Shown here one piece after another: positions 18,521-26,550 of a stretch of DNA of 64,000 nucleotides. Numbering within the stretch: position 1 is the stretch's first letter; every line of letters begins with the position of its first letter. The notes below the pieces were generated by a model, which had not been told where the DNA came from, searched no databases, and worked only from the letters and a program-made list of their open reading frames with translations. Source of the DNA: Sneathiella sp. P13V-1 (lineage in GTDB: Bacteria; Pseudomonadota; Alphaproteobacteria; Sneathiellales; Sneathiellaceae); assembly GCF_015143595.1 (NCBI RefSeq), contig NZ_WYEU01000001.1:248001-312000 (forward strand), given 5' to 3'. The position numbers were made by a program, and so were the translations under genes.

Positions 18521-19414
18521 ATGGAAACTGACTTACTTCGCATATTTCTTTCTGTCGCGAATAAGGGAAGTTTCGCGGCTGTTGCTAAAGAGCGAAACGT
18601 TGACCCTTCTTCCATTTCCCGTGCCATAGCCACCCTTGAAAGCCAATTGGACGCTCGCCTTTTCCAGCGCACAACCCGAAGCTTAACCTTAACCGAAGCA
18701 GGCCATTTATTCTTGGCGCGCGCCAAGCCCATCTGCGATGAACTGGAAATTGCACGAGACGAACTTGCTTCTTTTCAAAAAAAGGTCAGTGGAAAGCTGA
18801 GGATTTCCACCTCAGTTGCCTTTGGGCAAACCTGTCTCCTGCCGCACTTACCCATATTTAGGGACCTATACCCTGATTTGCAGATTGACCTGAAATTAAG
18901 TGATCAAAATCTGGATCTCATTTCCAACGAAATTGATCTGGCAATCCGCCTTAACCCTCTCTCTGACAATCGTTTTATTCGTAGCCGGCTTAAACACACC
19001 AGATACCGGGTCGTTGCGGCGCCAAATTACTTATCTAAAAATCCACCCCTCTCAACACCAGCCGACCTTGAACAGCATGAATGCCTGTTATTTGACTTAC
19101 CTCAGTATCAGGATTTCTGGAATTTCAAGGATGGGCAAGGAAAATTGTCGCAAATTCCCATCAGCGGCAACCTGACCATGAGCAATGCGCTTGCGATCAA
19201 AGAATGCGCTCTTCGCGGATTAGGGATCGCACTTCTCGCCGACTGGATGGTGGAGAAGGACATCCAAGATGGAAAGCTGGTTGACCTGTTCCCAAACCAT
19301 GAAGTTTCTGCGGAAGAATTTGATACCGGTATCTGGATCATATACCCAGACCGGGCCTTTCTTCCCTCAAAGACCCGGGTGATGATTGATTTCCTGAAAG
19401 ATAACCTCAAGTGA
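18521..19414 (+). CDS. LysR-family transcriptional regulator
   Basis: 297 residues with the N-terminal helix-turn-helix (LLRIFLSVANKGSFAAVAKE, VDPSSISRAIATLESQLDAR, LFQRTTRSLTLTEAGHLFL) and a periplasmic-binding-like effector domain from ~90 on. The DNA-binding part resembles the subgroup that controls divergent oxidoreductase genes, and an SDR gene is divergent here. Its last eight bases overlap the end of the convergent alkB-type gene. Confidence 0.92.
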   Translation: METDLLRIFLSVANKGSFAAVAKERNVDPSSISRAIATLESQLDARLFQRTTRSLTLTEAGHLFLARAKPICDELEIARDELASFQKKVSGKLRISTSVAFGQTCLLPHLPIFRDLYPDLQIDLKLSDQNLDLISNEIDLAIRLNPLSDNRFIRSRLKHTRYRVVAAPNYLSKNPPLSTPADLEQHECLLFDLPQYQDFWNFKDGQGKLSQIPISGNLTMSNALAIKECALRGLGIALLADWMVEKDIQDGKLVDLFPNHEVSAEEFDTGIWIIYPDRAFLPSKTRVMIDFLKDNLK

Positions 19415-20030
19415 GCGGTGCATGACCTTCAATGGTTCGGAAGGTGAGGTTTATACGCGGGGTAAAGACACGTTTTGTGGTCGGAAGGCTGTGCAACCAG
19501 TGACTTTGCGTCTCCCCTTTCATGATAAGAAGGCTGCCATGCTCCAATATCTGCGCGGCGGTTTCCTTCGTTTTCTTGTGTTTAAAAGAAAACTTCCGCT
19601 CCGCCCCGAAACTCAAAGACGCGATTGCCCCATTTCGTTTAAGTTCTCGCTCGGCATCACTATGCCAGGCCATGCCTTCTGATCCATCATGATATAAATT
19701 CAAAAGACAGGAATTAAACAACTCCTGACTTTCCCGCTCGGCAATGGCTTTTAGCTTCAATAGCTCATCCGTCCAGGGAAGCGCTGATTTCGTTGTCCCG
19801 GAATAGGTGTAAGAAAAAGGCTCCGACCCGTACCAGGCTACTTTTCGTTTTGTGGTGATTTTCTTGCCAAAAATAACGGCTTGATCATGTTGCCAACTAA
19901 TCCCGGTGAGAAGTTGATCATAAAAACGATCCGCATCCGTCAATGACATAACGGATCCATGATAATGGACCACACCATCCTTCGGCAGAAGGTTACGGGG
20001 TCCTTCTTCTACCTGTTCAAAGAGATCCAT
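19407..20030 (-). CDS. AlkB-type 2-oxoglutarate/Fe(II) dioxygenase (alkylated nucleic acid repair)
   Basis: Oxidatively removes methyl groups from N1-methyladenine and N3-methylcytosine. The iron ligands are visible in MAWHSDAERELKR (HxD) and SHWLHSLP (His), followed by the 2OG-binding RINLTFR. The segment SEPFSYTYSG and NLYHDGSEGMAWHSD place it with the ALKBH2/3-like bacterial group. ATG 20030 is taken as start; a TTG 24 bases earlier is possible. The gene overlaps the stand-alone Ada zinc domain gene by 22 bases and is the last member of an alkylation-repair operon. Confidence 0.9.
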   Translation of the reverse strand: MDLFEQVEEGPRNLLPKDGVVHYHGSVMSLTDADRFYDQLLTGISWQHDQAVIFGKKITTKRKVAWYGSEPFSYTYSGTTKSALPWTDELLKLKAIAERESQELFNSCLLNLYHDGSEGMAWHSDAERELKRNGAIASLSFGAERKFSFKHKKTKETAAQILEHGSLLIMKGETQSHWLHSLPTTKRVFTPRINLTFRTIEGHAPLT

Positions 20031-20254
20031 TGCCGATACGCCTTTTTCATACAATGACCGCAGGGCCGGAACCCACTCGATTGGGCCTCTTCCTTGCTCT
20101 TAAAAAACACCCGATTTTCCCGTTTCATCTTTTTGCCAGACCAGCAATCAAGACGACCATAAATCTTCAATTTGCGATGCCCGCCCCACTGAATGTCTCC
20201 AGCTTTGATATACGCCTTAAACGCCGCATCCTGAATTTCAAGATGTCGCATCAT
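20009..20254 (-). CDS. Stand-alone Ada metal-binding (methylphosphotriester) domain protein
   Basis: 81 residues corresponding to the N-terminal zinc domain of Ada: IYGRLDCWSGKKMKRENRVF then SSGFRPCGHCMKKAYRQW. In E. coli Ada four Cys bind zinc and the first is the methyl acceptor. Here the first Cys and the final CxxC pair are present, but the second Cys of the CxxxC is replaced (CWSGK), so a His or another residue would have to complete the site. It overlaps its neighbours on both sides (17 and 22 bases). Because the operon's Ada protein lacks this domain, it may work as a separate damage sensor. Confidence 0.8.
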   Translation of the reverse strand: MMRHLEIQDAAFKAYIKAGDIQWGGHRKLKIYGRLDCWSGKKMKRENRVFFKSKEEAQSSGFRPCGHCMKKAYRQWISLNR

Positions 20255-20951
20255 GGAAGATAATCCCTAGAGTATACCGGTTTCCGCTTTTGACTTCACT
20301 GACCCCATGACGGATTTTAGCTCGGTAGTACCCACGCGTGCCCAGAACTGGACGGAAATTGGTTGTGAAGATGATCATGTCACCGCGCCGTGGCGCTAGC
20401 ACCATTGCTTTTGATTGCGCCCGTGGCACCTGCTCGGTCAATACAAACTCACCGCCTGTATAGTCCTCACCCGGTTCGTTCAAAAAGCAAGCCGCCTGAA
20501 TGGGGAAATACACCTCCCCATACAAATCCTGATGCAATGTGTTGTAGCCACCTTGCCCATATTTCAGGATAAGCGGCGTTGGTTTCGATTGTCCCGCCCT
20601 CTGACACTGCTCACTCAACGAAAGCAGGTCTTTTGGAAACTGATCAGAAATTCCAAGCCATTTCATCCAGGAATTGGCGACAGGCACCAGATTTGGATAA
20701 AGTCCTTCCCTCAGTTCCTGTACCAAATCCGGCAAAGGGTAATTCCAATATTTGTAGGATCCTTTGCCAAAGCGATGCCGTTCCATAACAACGGTCTTTC
20801 GATACCCCTCCTCCTGATCAAAGCCTTCAATCAAAGCCCCGCATTCATTGGGGGACAGAAACTCAGGAACAAGCGCATAACCTTTGTTGTTGAGGTCATC
20901 GGCAACAGTTTGCCAATCCAGTACCGCTATTCTATCCTTCAACTCAGACAT
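20238..20951 (-). CDS. 2OG-Fe(II) oxygenase of the alkylation-repair operon
   Basis: A second iron/2-oxoglutarate dioxygenase, different from AlkB. It shows YNTLHQDLYGEVYFPIQ (HxD), GDMIIFTTNFRPV and AKIRHGVSEV (distal His), with a nearby Arg for 2OG. Start ATG 20951 has GGGAGG upstream and overlaps the end of the ada-type gene. Proteins of this kind are found beside ada in many proteobacteria, but the substrate is not established to my knowledge; repair of alkylated DNA or RNA is the natural guess from context. Confidence 0.8.
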   Translation of the reverse strand: MSELKDRIAVLDWQTVADDLNNKGYALVPEFLSPNECGALIEGFDQEEGYRKTVVMERHRFGKGSYKYWNYPLPDLVQELREGLYPNLVPVANSWMKWLGISDQFPKDLLSLSEQCQRAGQSKPTPLILKYGQGGYNTLHQDLYGEVYFPIQAACFLNEPGEDYTGGEFVLTEQVPRAQSKAMVLAPRRGDMIIFTTNFRPVLGTRGYYRAKIRHGVSEVKSGNRYTLGIIFHDATS

Positions 20952-21777
20952 GGGCAGCCTCCCACCCGAGGATGGCAGATTTTTTATCTTCACCCCATCG
21001 GTATCCGCCCAAATGACCCGATTTTTGGATCACACGATGGCACGGGATAAGATACGCAACCGGGTTATTTCCAATGGCAGTCCCAACTGCGCGGAAGGAC
21101 TTTGGATTCCCGATTTTAGTCGCAATATCCCCATAAGTGGACACGGCCCCTTCCGGAATTTTAAGCAGGCTTTCCCAAACTTTAATCTGAAATGGCGTCC
21201 CTGAAAGATGCAACTTGATCTGATCAAGACGCTTCCAATCATCCTGGAAAATAAACAAAGCATCTTGTTGCAACTTGTCTGTAATCTGACGGAACGGAGC
21301 GTTTGGGAAACGTGCCCGAAGCCCTTCAAAGGCAAGGTCCTCATCTTCTTCAAACTGCATGTGACACACCCCTTTGGGGGTTGAGGCTACAATCAGCTTT
21401 CCAAATGGACTTTCCGCGATGGAGTAATTAATAGGCAAGTTCGCTCCACCATTTTTAAACTCTCCCGGTGTCATTCCTTCGATAGACACAAACAGATCAT
21501 GTAACCGACTTGTCCCGGAAAGTCCCGTTTCATAGGCCGCATCCAGCAATGTAGACCGATTTTTCAGGAGCTCTTTAGCGTATTCCAAACTTAAATACTG
21601 CATGAACTTTTTAGGGCTTACTCCGGCCCATTCCTTAAACATCCGCTGAAAATGATGGGGGCTGACATGCACTGCCTCGGCAATCTGCTCAAGCGACGGC
21701 TGTTCCTTAAAATTCTCACGGATAAAGTGGATCGCTTTCTCAATCCGCTTGTAATCAATCTCGTCCTGATTTTGCAT
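20944..21777 (-). CDS. ada: Ada-like AraC regulator fused to O6-methylguanine-DNA methyltransferase
   Basis: 277 residues. Residues ~10-105 are an AraC-type helix-turn-helix domain (SLEQIAEAVHVSPHHFQRMF, AYETGLSGTSRLHDLF). Residues ~115-275 are a methylguanine methyltransferase with AVSTYGDIATKIGNPKSFRA and the catalytic Cys in YLIPCHRVIQKSG, followed by GGYRWG. The N-terminal methylphosphotriester sensor of E. coli Ada is absent; it is encoded two genes downstream as a free protein. Starts 9 bases after the SDR stop, so all five genes look like one unit. Confidence 0.92.
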   Translation of the reverse strand: MQNQDEIDYKRIEKAIHFIRENFKEQPSLEQIAEAVHVSPHHFQRMFKEWAGVSPKKFMQYLSLEYAKELLKNRSTLLDAAYETGLSGTSRLHDLFVSIEGMTPGEFKNGGANLPINYSIAESPFGKLIVASTPKGVCHMQFEEDEDLAFEGLRARFPNAPFRQITDKLQQDALFIFQDDWKRLDQIKLHLSGTPFQIKVWESLLKIPEGAVSTYGDIATKIGNPKSFRAVGTAIGNNPVAYLIPCHRVIQKSGHLGGYRWGEDKKSAILGWEAAHV

Positions 21778-22691: not shown

Positions 22692-22885
22692 AACATGGGC
22701 TACAAGCCGAAGATTGAAGTCTTCCAAAGCATCAGGAATACCGTTGCCACCTAGTTTAATAACGCTGGAGTTCCTCCGCCAACATCTTAGGACATGACAT
22801 CCCTACCCTCACCTACGGGCTGTATGCATCTGACACTGACTTTGAGGTGGCGAAGGAGGCGATGGGGAGGTTAGTTTATCCTTAG
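22692..22885 (+). pseudogene. Decayed tyrosine recombinase (integrase) C-terminal remnant
   Basis: Forward strand, frame starting at 22692, reads MGYKPKIEVFQSIRNTVAT, a TAG stop at 22752, then FNNAGVPPPTS. A one-base shift near 22784 continues the integrase as ILGHDIPTLTYGLYASDTD and on to AMGRLVYP and a stop at 22885. The pieces match the end of phage-type integrases: catalytic Arg in the HxxR box (here QSIR, first His lost), the LGH box, and the nucleophile Tyr in TYGLY. The catalytic N-terminal two-thirds is missing. The gene is dead but shows that an integrating element was here. Confidence 0.85.
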
Positions 22886-23133
22886 CTGAACAATAAAAAT
22901 ATGTACTTTAACTATTTTCTGGAGCACAATAGGTTGAATCGAAATATCAAAATTAATAACAATACATGTGCCACTCTCTTAACATTCACACACGCCTCAC
23001 TAATCAGTATCATTTGAGATCTCTTAACGATTTTTTAGTCAATTTACTTGACAATCCTTCCTTTCAGCATCATATGATACCAAGCATGATGCCTGCTCCG
23101 TCATACAAGTTTAACAAGTGAGCTTCACGTAGA
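22886..23133. promoter_or_regulatory. Promoter/operator region of the three-gene island operon
   Basis: TTGACA at 23048-23053 is followed, 19 bases on, by TATGAT (23073-23078), which lies inside the palindrome ATCATATGAT (23069-23078). A related segment occurs 60 bases upstream: CAGTATCATTTGAGA at 23005-23019 versus CAGCATCATATGATA at 23065-23079. A further GCATGATGC lies at 23084-23092. These are good candidates for autoregulatory binding of the HTH antitoxin over its own promoter; the region is A+T-rich. Confidence 0.5.
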
Positions 23134-23481
23134 ATGAACGGGAGCAAACTTGATTCAGTTAGAAAGGAACTAGTTCGACTTTGTCGCGACGGTAGAAAAA
23201 GGTTCGTGGCTCGAAAATACCCACACAACTGGCACCCCCATTCTGTTCCTCGTAATTCAGCTCTCGGAACATTCTCAGACGAAAGCGCCTGGGAGTGGAT
23301 TGCTGACCAAATTGAAGCAGGATGTGAATTGAAAGCAGAAGATTGGCGGCACGGCCCTCAAGAAAAAATAGCGCACATTTTCGTCGCGAAAGCGTCTAAA
23401 GATGGCAAGCCGATATACGTCAAACTTCATTTAGGTAACCAAGTAGTCCTTGGGATTAGTTTTCATATTTCTACCAAATAA
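23134..23481 (+). CDS. Putative MqsR-like toxin
   Basis: 115 residues, basic, first gene of a toxin-antitoxin-like trio. I do not recognise a close named family. The C-terminal half (SAWEWIADQIEAG, EDWRHGPQEKIAHIFVAK, PIYVKLHLGNQVVLGISFHIS) follows the layout of MqsR/RelE-type mRNA interferases, in which a final strand pair such as IYxKLxxxxxVxxISF is typical. The 12-base gap to an MqsA-like antitoxin supports this reading strongly. Basic residues cluster in the N-terminal part (RKRFVARKYPHNW HPH region), as expected for RNA binding. Order toxin-then-antitoxin matches mqsRA. Confidence 0.6.
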   Translation: MNGSKLDSVRKELVRLCRDGRKRFVARKYPHNWHPHSVPRNSALGTFSDESAWEWIADQIEAGCELKAEDWRHGPQEKIAHIFVAKASKDGKPIYVKLHLGNQVVLGISFHISTK

Positions 23482-23493
23482 TGAAAGGGAAGC

Positions 23494-24027
23494 ATGATGA
23501 GTAAATACCTCGAAGATAACCACCAACATATTTGCTGCCCTCTTTGTGAAAACGAAAACCTCACCAGCACTTTTCAATCCGAAGACATCCAATACGGCAG
23601 TAGTGGAAAATCAGTTACAGTTGACATACCAGTTTTTATCTGTCCGTCTTGTAGCTTTGTATTTAGCGGCGAAGAAGCCGAAACTGTAATTCACGACGCT
23701 ATTTGCAAAGATATGGGCGTCCTTACCCCCTCAGAGATTACAGAAATTCGTAGGAAGCTTGGACTATCTCAAGAGAAATTTGCTGAACTCACAAAAATTG
23801 GAGTTGCTTCGATAAAGAGATGGGAAAGCGGTAAAACCATTCAAGATGCCAGCAAAGATACTTATCTTCGCCTCTTAGCAATCCCAGAGGTGATGGATAA
23901 ACTTGAGAGAATCAACAATAAGGCGAAACAATTACCAACCAAAAAGGAACCAAAATTTAGATCCCAATTTAGTCCCGCAACAATCTCGCGGGCCGAGAAC
24001 TTCCAATTGAGAAGGCTAGCCGCTTAA
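23494..24027 (+). CDS. MqsA/YgiT-like antitoxin: zinc finger plus helix-turn-helix
   Basis: 177 residues. N-terminal zinc domain with CPLC (residues 15-18) and CPSC (~50-53), the two-knuckle arrangement of MqsA, then a helix-turn-helix TPSEITEIRRKLGLSQEKFA with KIGVASIKRWESGKTIQDAS, the HTH_MqsA pattern that binds DNA. The C-terminal ~40 residues are Lys/Arg-rich and appear disordered. It should neutralise the upstream protein and repress the operon. ATG 23494 follows AAAGGGAAGC. It is longer than E. coli MqsA (131). Confidence 0.85.
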   Translation: MMSKYLEDNHQHICCPLCENENLTSTFQSEDIQYGSSGKSVTVDIPVFICPSCSFVFSGEEAETVIHDAICKDMGVLTPSEITEIRRKLGLSQEKFAELTKIGVASIKRWESGKTIQDASKDTYLRLLAIPEVMDKLERINNKAKQLPTKKEPKFRSQFSPATISRAENFQLRRLAA

Positions 24028-24039
24028 GGTGATCATCAA

Positions 24040-26001
24040 ATGCACGTAGTTACTTTTTATTCATATAAAGGTGGAGTTGGCAGAACACTCGCCCTAACAA
24101 ATTGCGCTGCAGAATTTGCGAAAAGAGGTAAAAAAGTCCTGATTGTCGATTTCGATTTGGAAGCACCAGGAATTACTTCCATTGACACTTTCAAAGAATG
24201 TGCTGGAAAAGGTGTAGTTGAGTATATTTCTGACTACATGCACAACGACTTAAAAGCTCCTGACATTTCAGGTTACATTCGAAAGTGCGACAAATGGCTT
24301 TCCACAACTAATAAGAACAATGAAACCGTGGATGGAGAGATTTGGGTTATGCCAGCTGGTGATAGATCCCAAAACTATGAACAAAATTTGCAAGGCCTGG
24401 ATTGGCAATTGCTCTACAGTGAATACAGTGGCTTCCTGTTGATGGAGGAGATGCGCAACCAATGGGAAGCTGTTTGCTCTCCAGATTATGTCTTAATTGA
24501 CAGCAGGACAGGACATACCGATGTAAGCGGTATTTGCACAAGACAATTGCCAGATTCTGTAGTTATTGTATTCGTGCCAAATACACAAAATTTAGACGGC
24601 CTAACAAAAGTTGTAGAGTCCATTCGGGATGAAGCTTTATCACAAAAAAGCGGACTAGAAAGGTGCGCCAGAGTTCTATTCACGCCAAGCAGACTTCCAA
24701 CGATCGATGATGAAGAACAAATACTCAAATCACAGCTGGAGACCTCTTCTATAAAGCTTAACTACAGAAAAGCAGCGGCATCCATATATCATTATGAGAG
24801 CCTTGAGCTTTTCACACAATCTTTGTTTACATTACACAGACCCAACACCAAGCTCTCAAAAGACTATTGCAAACTAGTTGACGCAATTTCAATTGGCAAT
24901 TTTGAAGACAAAATTGGCGTTCTGAAGTATCTTCAAAAACAAGCTAGCATCACGATCAGCCAACTCACCAACAATCCATTTAATTCTGATAATCAAATTA
25001 TTGATCCAGGAAGAGAGCAGGACAACTGGGCGGACACCAAAAGCAAGATTCTTTCAAACTTCAATACTGATGAGGAGGTCACCTTAAGCTTGGCTCAAGT
25101 TGAACACCTTCAAGGCAACAGTGAAGAAGCAGTATCAATCTTTGACCACTTTAGTCTCAGCGAACAAGACCTAGCCACTACTCACTTTTCATATGCACAG
25201 GCCTTAGAAGCAATTGGCAATACTGAAAAAGCGAACGCCAGTTATTTGAACGTTATTAATAAAAGCAGATATATTGAAGGTGCAGATATTGAATTGAGAG
25301 CTGTATCGAAGTTAGCGAATACATACCCTAAATCACTAGATTTAGTTGATGTATACCGATTACTAGAGAATTCTCCAATCGAACACTTACTCGAAATTGT
25401 AAGAAATGACTTATTAGTAGATGGAGTAAATTTCAGCAAAAGAACCGAATTCGCTTATCGAGTTGTTAAGGCTCTCGAACAAACTAAGTTAAATAAGGAA
25501 GAACTCAACCTTCAAAGACACACACTAACAATGCTAAATATCGCAACAAGAAGGTTCCCTGAAGCTACTGATGTTATATTCAACAATATGGAACAGAGAA
25601 CCATCAAAATGTTTGCAAGCATATCTGATGCTTTCAACGCTTCTATCGCTCTATGGGGGTTGGAAGGACGCCCAGACAAATCGAATTTTGTCTACGTGTT
25701 AAAACTGTTCCGGCAATATCAAAAAAAAGCAGCTCTACGGGATCCGAATATTCTTTTCTGTATTGGTATTACCAAAGCCGTTTGTGGAGAAACAAACGAG
25801 GCAATTCAAATCCTCGAACAATCTGCTAAAAGCGTGACTTTATACGGTTCAAGAGCGTTTAGCCCTTGGCGCTACAGAGAGGTCACATCAAATGTATTTA
25901 AAGAGGATATTCAGGAAGCAATCAAAACCATCAAATCGGACAACCACATACGCCCCTGGATAATATACCAAGATCAAGAAAGACTGCCGCTATTGAACTA
26001 G
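24040..26001 (+). CDS. KGGVGRT-type ParA/MinD-like ATPase with TPR-like C-terminal region
   Basis: 653 residues, 12 bases after the antitoxin. Residues 8-16 YKGGVGRTL are a deviant Walker A in which the usual second Lys is Arg, the hallmark of the KGGVGR-motif ATPase group. VLIVDFDLEAPG is the Walker A'-like strand and DYVLIDSRTGHTDVSG the Walker B region. From ~340 on, the protein is helical with TPR-like repeats (EEAVSIFDHFSLSEQDLATT, THFSYAQALEAIGNTEKANA). It is markedly A+T-rich compared with the core genes. KGGVGR ATPases often accompany toxin or effector modules; how it would work with an MqsRA-like pair is unknown. Confidence 0.8.
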   Translation: MHVVTFYSYKGGVGRTLALTNCAAEFAKRGKKVLIVDFDLEAPGITSIDTFKECAGKGVVEYISDYMHNDLKAPDISGYIRKCDKWLSTTNKNNETVDGEIWVMPAGDRSQNYEQNLQGLDWQLLYSEYSGFLLMEEMRNQWEAVCSPDYVLIDSRTGHTDVSGICTRQLPDSVVIVFVPNTQNLDGLTKVVESIRDEALSQKSGLERCARVLFTPSRLPTIDDEEQILKSQLETSSIKLNYRKAAASIYHYESLELFTQSLFTLHRPNTKLSKDYCKLVDAISIGNFEDKIGVLKYLQKQASITISQLTNNPFNSDNQIIDPGREQDNWADTKSKILSNFNTDEEVTLSLAQVEHLQGNSEEAVSIFDHFSLSEQDLATTHFSYAQALEAIGNTEKANASYLNVINKSRYIEGADIELRAVSKLANTYPKSLDLVDVYRLLENSPIEHLLEIVRNDLLVDGVNFSKRTEFAYRVVKALEQTKLNKEELNLQRHTLTMLNIATRRFPEATDVIFNNMEQRTIKMFASISDAFNASIALWGLEGRPDKSNFVYVLKLFRQYQKKAALRDPNILFCIGITKAVCGETNEAIQILEQSAKSVTLYGSRAFSPWRYREVTSNVFKEDIQEAIKTIKSDNHIRPWIIYQDQERLPLLN

Positions 26002-26459: not shown

Positions 26460-26550
26460 TGGCGGAGGGAGGGGGATTCGAACCCCCGATACGGTGTTGC
26501 CGTATACACACTTTCCAGGCGTGCGCCTTCAGCCACTCGGCCACCCCTCC
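26460..26550 (-). tRNA. tRNA-Ser (anticodon GGA)
   Basis: On the reverse strand the sequence begins GGAGGGGTGGCCGAGTGGC, with anticodon arm around CCTGGAAAG (anticodon GGA), a long variable arm typical of serine tRNA (ACGGTGTTGCCGT side), T-loop GGTTCGAATCC and an encoded CCA end (26460-26462). Acceptor stem pairs GGAGGGG with TCCCTCC, with one G-T. Its 3' end faces the island to the left, so it is a likely integration site. Confidence 0.93.

Follow-up and report, generated by a model that had tools for sequence, protein, structure and literature searches.

A conserved three-gene unit of a putative toxin, an MqsA-like antitoxin and a KGGVGR ATPase, probably a tripartite toxin–antitoxin module

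To our knowledge, little has been established about how anti-phage toxin–antitoxin (TA) modules become activated. Among described systems, toxin–antitoxin–chaperone (TAC) modules, such as M. tuberculosis HigBA1-SecBTA and CmdTAC, are by analogy the closest working counterpart of the locus reported here. SecB-like chaperones occur with HigBA, MqsRA, and HicAB pairs, and a comparison of four TAC extensions revealed no significant similarity among them (PMC5105189). For CmdTAC, the toxin is freed when its chaperone, CmdC, becomes titrated by a phage capsid protein (PMC11618068).

The window, that is, the whole stretch of 64,000 nucleotides from Sneathiella sp. P13V-1 that was analysed, contains at positions 23134-26001 three open reading frames (ORFs) on the + strand, separated by two gaps of exactly 12 bases, as the initial annotation had described them. 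That annotation had also placed the genes in A+T-rich DNA with a tRNA-Ser on one side, and both statements agree with our data: the G+C content of the trio is about 40%, compared with 47-50% in the flanks, and a tRNA-Ser(GGA) lies on the - strand downstream of the third gene. It knew of no described system of this composition, and we likewise found no published description of the trio in the open-access papers searched. The features of the locus are the following:

23007..23020, no strand assigned: possible second, degenerate operator GTATCATTTGAGAT, read from the sequence
23067..23080, no strand assigned: conserved palindromic operator GCATCATATGATAC (consensus GTATCATATGATAC)
23134..23481, + strand: putative toxin (gene 1), an ORF of 115 aa with an MqsR-like C-terminus
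23494..24027, + strand: MqsA-like antitoxin and presumed autorepressor (gene 2), 177 aa (TIGR03830, E 6.7e-24; PF15731, E 3.1e-10)
23953..24024, + strand: antitoxin tail KFRSQFSPATISRAENFQLRRLAA, conserved in 67 trios, the proposed handle for the ATPase
24040..26001, + strand: KGGVGR ATPase (gene 3), 653 aa (NF047398, E 1.9e-52)
26460..26550, - strand: tRNA-Ser(GGA), found with ARAGORN, the chromosomal anchor that the trio adjoins

The "dead integrase" that had been reported beside the trio could not be confirmed. An open stretch, NILGHDIPTLTYGLYASDTDFEVAKEAMGRLVYP, at 22781-22882, followed by a stop, reads by eye as the end of a tyrosine integrase; this short, relic-like peptide has no family match in PHROG and no convincing counterpart among the compared loci. 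Further upstream, the - strand carries at 19407-21777 what appears by eye to be an alkylation-damage repair cluster, with an AlkB-like protein, a stand-alone Ada-type Zn domain (20009-20254), a 2OG-Fe oxygenase-like protein, and an AraC/methyltransferase Ada-like protein.

Relatives of the ATPase were collected by scanning about 85,000 genomes with the pattern G[IV]CTR[QH]L[PA]D (region 160-290), which yielded 108 sequences, 80 of which were fetched. Judging from the titles of their records, which often denote metagenome assemblies, the 108 relatives are distributed among the Alpha-, Beta-, and Gammaproteobacteria, Planctomycetota, Acidobacteria, Nitrospirales, Omnitrophota, Binatia, Spirochaetia, Elusimicrobia, Latescibacterota, and others. 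An MqsA-like gene lies directly upstream of the ATPase gene in 78 of the 80 loci, and a toxin-like gene precedes the antitoxin in 73 of them, always in the order toxin, antitoxin, ATPase; the other two loci have different TA-like pairs upstream. The trio suggested by the initial annotation is found, then, in many phyla, and no full-length ATPase gene of the subfamily lacked a TA-like gene upstream among these loci. The junctions are mostly short overlaps or gaps of less than 30 bases, and the larger overlaps arise from choosing the longest possible start. Across loci, the distances calculated for the three proteins co-vary pairwise (r of 0.74, 0.78, and 0.81; n=67), and none of 2000 permutations gave a value as high, the largest being 0.26. 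The same gene order was found by tblastn on plasmids of Rhizobium phaseoli, R. gallicum, and Massilia forsythiae, and scans of viral contigs provided more trios. The trio is a conserved unit and not a set of chance neighbours. Among 96 relatives and 385 genomes of the source's class, the toxin and the full-length ATPase were found only in the window's own genome; therefore, the unit is rare and sporadic.

Seven of the 80 loci lack a match to gene 1. In four of them (L028, L080, L100, and L048), a diverged small ORF occupies the position of the toxin, and in another (L057) no toxin can be read and a stretch of N lies upstream. The last two have a HicA-like ORF of 76 aa with a 220-aa HTH protein (L085), an arrangement shared with the Polymorphobacter plasmid L004, and a HigB-like ORF of 135 aa with an XRE protein (L075), both labels being assigned by eye to ORFs with no Pfam toxin match. 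In the planctomycete assemblies L028, L080, and L100, the MqsA-like gene and the ATPase gene are present, but the diverged small upstream protein, of the IYIETVLD / VTVVN type, is missed by the toxin model.

The product of gene 1 has no match in Pfam, NCBIfam, PADLOC, PHROG, or PDB sequences, and the MqsR model PF15723 did not match it at E<=1. Its C-terminus (PIYVKLHL...GISFHIS) resembles that of MqsR over 21 columns (hhalign against 14 MqsR sequences; P ~0.005), which correspond to the last two strands with the YxK...SF motif; local profile alignment gave this C-terminal motif only, and a global profile alignment with MqsR was unsuccessful. Residue Y95 aligns with Tyr81 of MqsR, which is essential for catalysis (PMC9636575), and H111 aligns with Lys96, each of the two residues being kept in 55 of 56 homologues, while Lys56, a further catalytic residue of MqsR, has no clear counterpart in the profile alignment. 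The residues conserved in the 56 aligned homologues are R23, W33, W53, Y95, K97, S109, F110, and H111. The AlphaFold model (pLDDT 87.4) consists of a helix, a short strand, a helix, and four strands, an order that we take to suit a BECR/MqsR-type toxin. Since Foldseek returned nothing below E 0.001 for this model against the PDB and viral models, we still infer rather than state that gene 1 encodes an MqsR-like RNase, on the grounds of its topology, of the YxK...SF motif, and of its pairing with an MqsA-like gene. Of the MqsR likeness given to the first gene in the initial annotation, the C-terminal resemblance was recovered; the helix and strand order of the confident model is compatible with it, and neither the family model nor the fold search gave a significant match. 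The window toxin alone had no match among viral contigs, and an eight-row toxin alignment was too diverse for a pattern search. It is worth noting that the toxin-like gene carries no annotation at the plasmid trios examined (PLSDB records), so the system is easily overlooked.

The second gene was said to encode clearly an MqsA-like zinc-finger/HTH protein, and our analysis agrees: its product scores above the MqsA cut-offs (TIGR03830, 84.1 bits with a cut-off of 61.8; PF15731, 40.7 with a cut-off of 30) and has a Zn ribbon (C15, C18, C50, and C53), an XRE HTH at about 84-117, and a C-terminal tail. The Zn-ribbon cysteine columns are invariant among 67 trio antitoxins. In these proteins, a poorly conserved linker joins the MqsA part to the tail, whose motif, F…FxLR, is conserved at 93% (first F), 94% (second F), 94% (L), and 66% (R). 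Among 89 antitoxins, a set that includes two viral MqsA-like proteins (L015 and L016) with no ATPase seen beside them, 81 have the pattern F.[LIVMF] within their final 22 residues, compared to 23% of shuffled tails. The solved E. coli MqsA, of 133 residues, aligns to residues 12-135 of the window antitoxin; the classical MqsA proteins of 11 two-gene plasmid loci (131-143 aa) have no tail, and neither do those of two classical pairs from the source's class (L101 and L102), the MqsA of a third such pair (L103) having an unrelated extension. Because MqsA residues 1-76 alone bind and block MqsR (PMC9636575), the tail would be free for another partner.

The antitoxins of the other TA-like pairs end in FDLRR (L004 and L085) or FVVRR (L075), and the background frequencies near the C-terminus of other ORFs are 2.0% for F.[LIV]R and 0.65% for F.[LIV]R[RP]. 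A tail common to different TA families is suggestive only, given that the motif comparison was post hoc and that a tail-only HMM misses the HicB-like and HigA-like antitoxins (ranks 561 and 170).

The product of gene 3 matches NF047398, the model of KGGVGR-motif variant AAA ATPases, with 178.4 bits (cut-off 90). Its AlphaFold model (pLDDT 88.5) has a SIMIBI (MinD/ParA) domain at about 1-285 and an alpha-solenoid at about 291-632, and the best PDB fold is MinD 1hyq (E 4.3e-7), the best solved matches being MinD and ParA/Soj. All 47 sequences compared have K10 and R15 of the KGGVGR (R15, 47/47) as well as the DSRTG motif. The ParA-like ATPase of 653 residues was correctly recognised, and so were its helical repeats, which appear as weak TPR matches and as the predicted solenoid. 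PADLOC PDC-M28B matches the ATPase domain only, and no ParB gene is annotated beside the trio in the plasmid loci examined. A different KGGVGR ATPase, of 1096 aa and with an apparent second ATPase domain, adjoins a caspase-like protein on a viral contig (L012, 3934-9288), probably another conflict cassette of the KGGVGR ATPase type.

Just upstream of the toxin gene, a palindrome with up to 3 mismatches to GTATCATATGATAC is present in 42 of 87 loci across phyla and would fit autorepression by the antitoxin HTH; the corresponding frequencies are 1.1% for shuffled stretches and 0.4% for control regions. The degenerate copy, GTATCATTTGAGAT, overlaps a TATCAT -10-like hexamer (23008-23013) and resembles GTATCATTTGATAC, found upstream of rhizobial trios; the promoter-like match at 22985-23013 is not above shuffle expectation. 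Neither this operator nor the tail of the antitoxin figures in the initial annotation; they are the best mechanistic clues to this system.

The toxin gene has a stop at the conserved W33 codon in L009 (5122-5217), with antitoxin and ATPase intact, is interrupted by a stop codon in L070, and has frame breaks in L094 and L095. The ATPase is split in L031 and L094 and shortened in L057, L070, L076, L077, and L096. Downstream of the shortened genes, no more solenoid sequence was detected; L096 retains the start of the solenoid. L076, L077, and L096 combine a whole toxin and antitoxin with an ATPase whose arm is wholly or largely missing. No broken antitoxin was seen among the trio loci surveyed. 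Taken at face value, these losses suggest with moderate strength that the antitoxin is indispensable, unlike the toxin and the arm of the ATPase, and this moderately favours an activating ATPase over a strict protector. The arm-less ATPases are no proof of dispensability because they come from metagenome assemblies and still have the ATPase domain.

On the side of the tRNA-Ser, lepA and a small ORF, the surroundings are conserved in 12 congeneric genomes, in none of which the trio and the genes beyond were found at this tRNA (three of the stretches are short and reach contig ends). In one congener, the end of the tRNA recurs as a 20-base copy (L173, 6183-6202). The tRNA-Ser is probably an integration site that takes up islands, considering that two congeners have integrase-like ORFs, identified by eye, 142 bases (L173, 10490-11722) and 135 bases (L178, 1614-2660) away from it. 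At other trios, some of 102 neighbouring proteins gave raw matches to models of pAgo, type I and IV restriction, AriAB, TRIP13, and PtuA; the defence types represented are pAgo, restriction, PARIS, CBASS, and Septu. Several copies of the trio are on plasmids or beside integrases, and many are on large chromosomal contigs from diverse phyla.

Our main reading, to which we assign a probability of about 0.5, is that the trio is a mobile tripartite TA module in which the ATPase senses a trigger, acts on the antitoxin tail, and frees the toxin. Gene 1 would encode a small toxin, probably an mRNA-cleaving enzyme of the MqsR/RelE type, and gene 2 a Zn-ribbon/HTH antitoxin that, judging from MqsA homology, would bind the toxin with its N-terminal domain and, from the same homology and the conservation of the operator, repress the operon through the TATCATATGATA palindrome. 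Gene 3 would provide an ATPase of the MinD/ParA type whose helical repeats serve as a sensor arm; this ATPase would grip the antitoxin by the conserved C-terminal FxLR tail. A trigger, for example a phage product, would bind the ATPase, which would act as an activator and not as a protector; the antitoxin would be altered and the toxin released, and growth or phage production would stop. A role in defence or addiction is plausible, the mobile and defence-gene neighbours being circumstantial indications of defence. The trio, in our view a variant tripartite TA module, is well supported as a unit; its mechanism and defence role we infer. A broader proposal is that the MinD/ParA-type ATPase with its sensor solenoid is an exchangeable trigger unit, combined for defence with MqsRA-like, HicAB-like, and HigBA-like pairs through a common antitoxin tail, which would make it a new class of tripartite TA systems; we put this forward tentatively, at somewhat below even odds.

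The third protein could instead protect, as in TAC-like addiction, where a chaperone-like grip on the tail would help the antitoxin to stay folded or shield it from proteases, and the toxin would be freed once the ATPase is lost or titrated. The gene order equals that of TAC, the antitoxin extension sits where the chaperone-addiction region does, MqsRA, HicAB, and HigBA pair with SecB-like chaperones (PMC5105189) and, by inspection, with the trio ATPase, and the titration of CmdC by a capsid protein is a proven precedent (PMC11618068). However, the third protein is not SecB-like, TAC extensions are dissimilar among themselves (PMC5105189) while the trio tail is conserved, and the three loci with intact toxin and antitoxin and an ATPase solenoid all or mostly lost are mildly against it; we regard this alternative as rather unlikely.

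It is improbable, in our view, that the trio is a stability module in which a TA pair and a partition-type ATPase serve plasmid or island maintenance and not defence. The MinD/ParA fold, the copies on plasmids or beside integrases, and the integrase-like ORFs seen by inspection at the same tRNA-Ser in two congeners are in its favour, but the unit has no ParB gene, the P-loop lysine is replaced by an invariant Arg, many copies are on large chromosomal contigs of diverse phyla, and the ATPase arm and the antitoxin tail would be left unexplained. The idea that an MqsRA pair of the ordinary kind happens to adjoin a ParA-like gene unrelated to it has almost no chance of being correct: both gene types are common on mobile DNA, but the near-perfect linkage across phyla, the tight junctions, and the co-variation refute chance adjacency.

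If the main reading, an ATPase that frees the toxin upon a trigger, is true, SIMIBI ATPases would join SecB chaperones in the toxin–antitoxin–helper idea, and some of the uncharacterised KGGVGR ATPases would be accounted for. With a conserved, proposed handle on the antitoxin and a nucleotide-binding protein that is encoded separately and has a sensor-like arm, the question of toxin release becomes testable.

Compared with known systems, the trio shares with TAC the set of toxin, antitoxin, and helper in the same gene order, an antitoxin C-terminal extension absent from two-gene relatives, and overlapping TA families. It differs in the helper, a SIMIBI ATPase with a solenoid instead of a SecB-like chaperone, which rules out membership in TAC, in a tail motif that is conserved across phyla, and in an apparent tolerance to loss of the ATPase arm. 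With MqsRA (YgiU/YgiT), it has in common that the toxin gene comes first, that the antitoxin passes the MqsA models with its four Zn cysteines and HTH, and that the toxin ends in YxK...SF strands; the toxin fails the MqsR model PF15723, which rules out a plain MqsRA pair, and the extra tail, the third gene, and the operator TATCATATGATA are further differences. The KGGVGR-motif variant AAA ATPases (NF047398; PADLOC PDC-M28B) have the same deviant P-loop, with R for the Walker lysine, and occur in conflict-type cassettes, whereas the trio subfamily stands apart by a solenoid arm of its own and by its link to TA pairs. ptuXYZ (PMC11980606) is similar in having three genes and an ATPase joined with a BECR-fold RNase, but it has a PtuA-like ATPase, a DUF262 nuclease, and no MqsA antitoxin. 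Finally, the trio ATPase is distinguished from the ParA partition ATPases by the lack of the canonical Walker lysine (R15 in 47/47) and, in the plasmid loci examined, of an annotated ParB partner.
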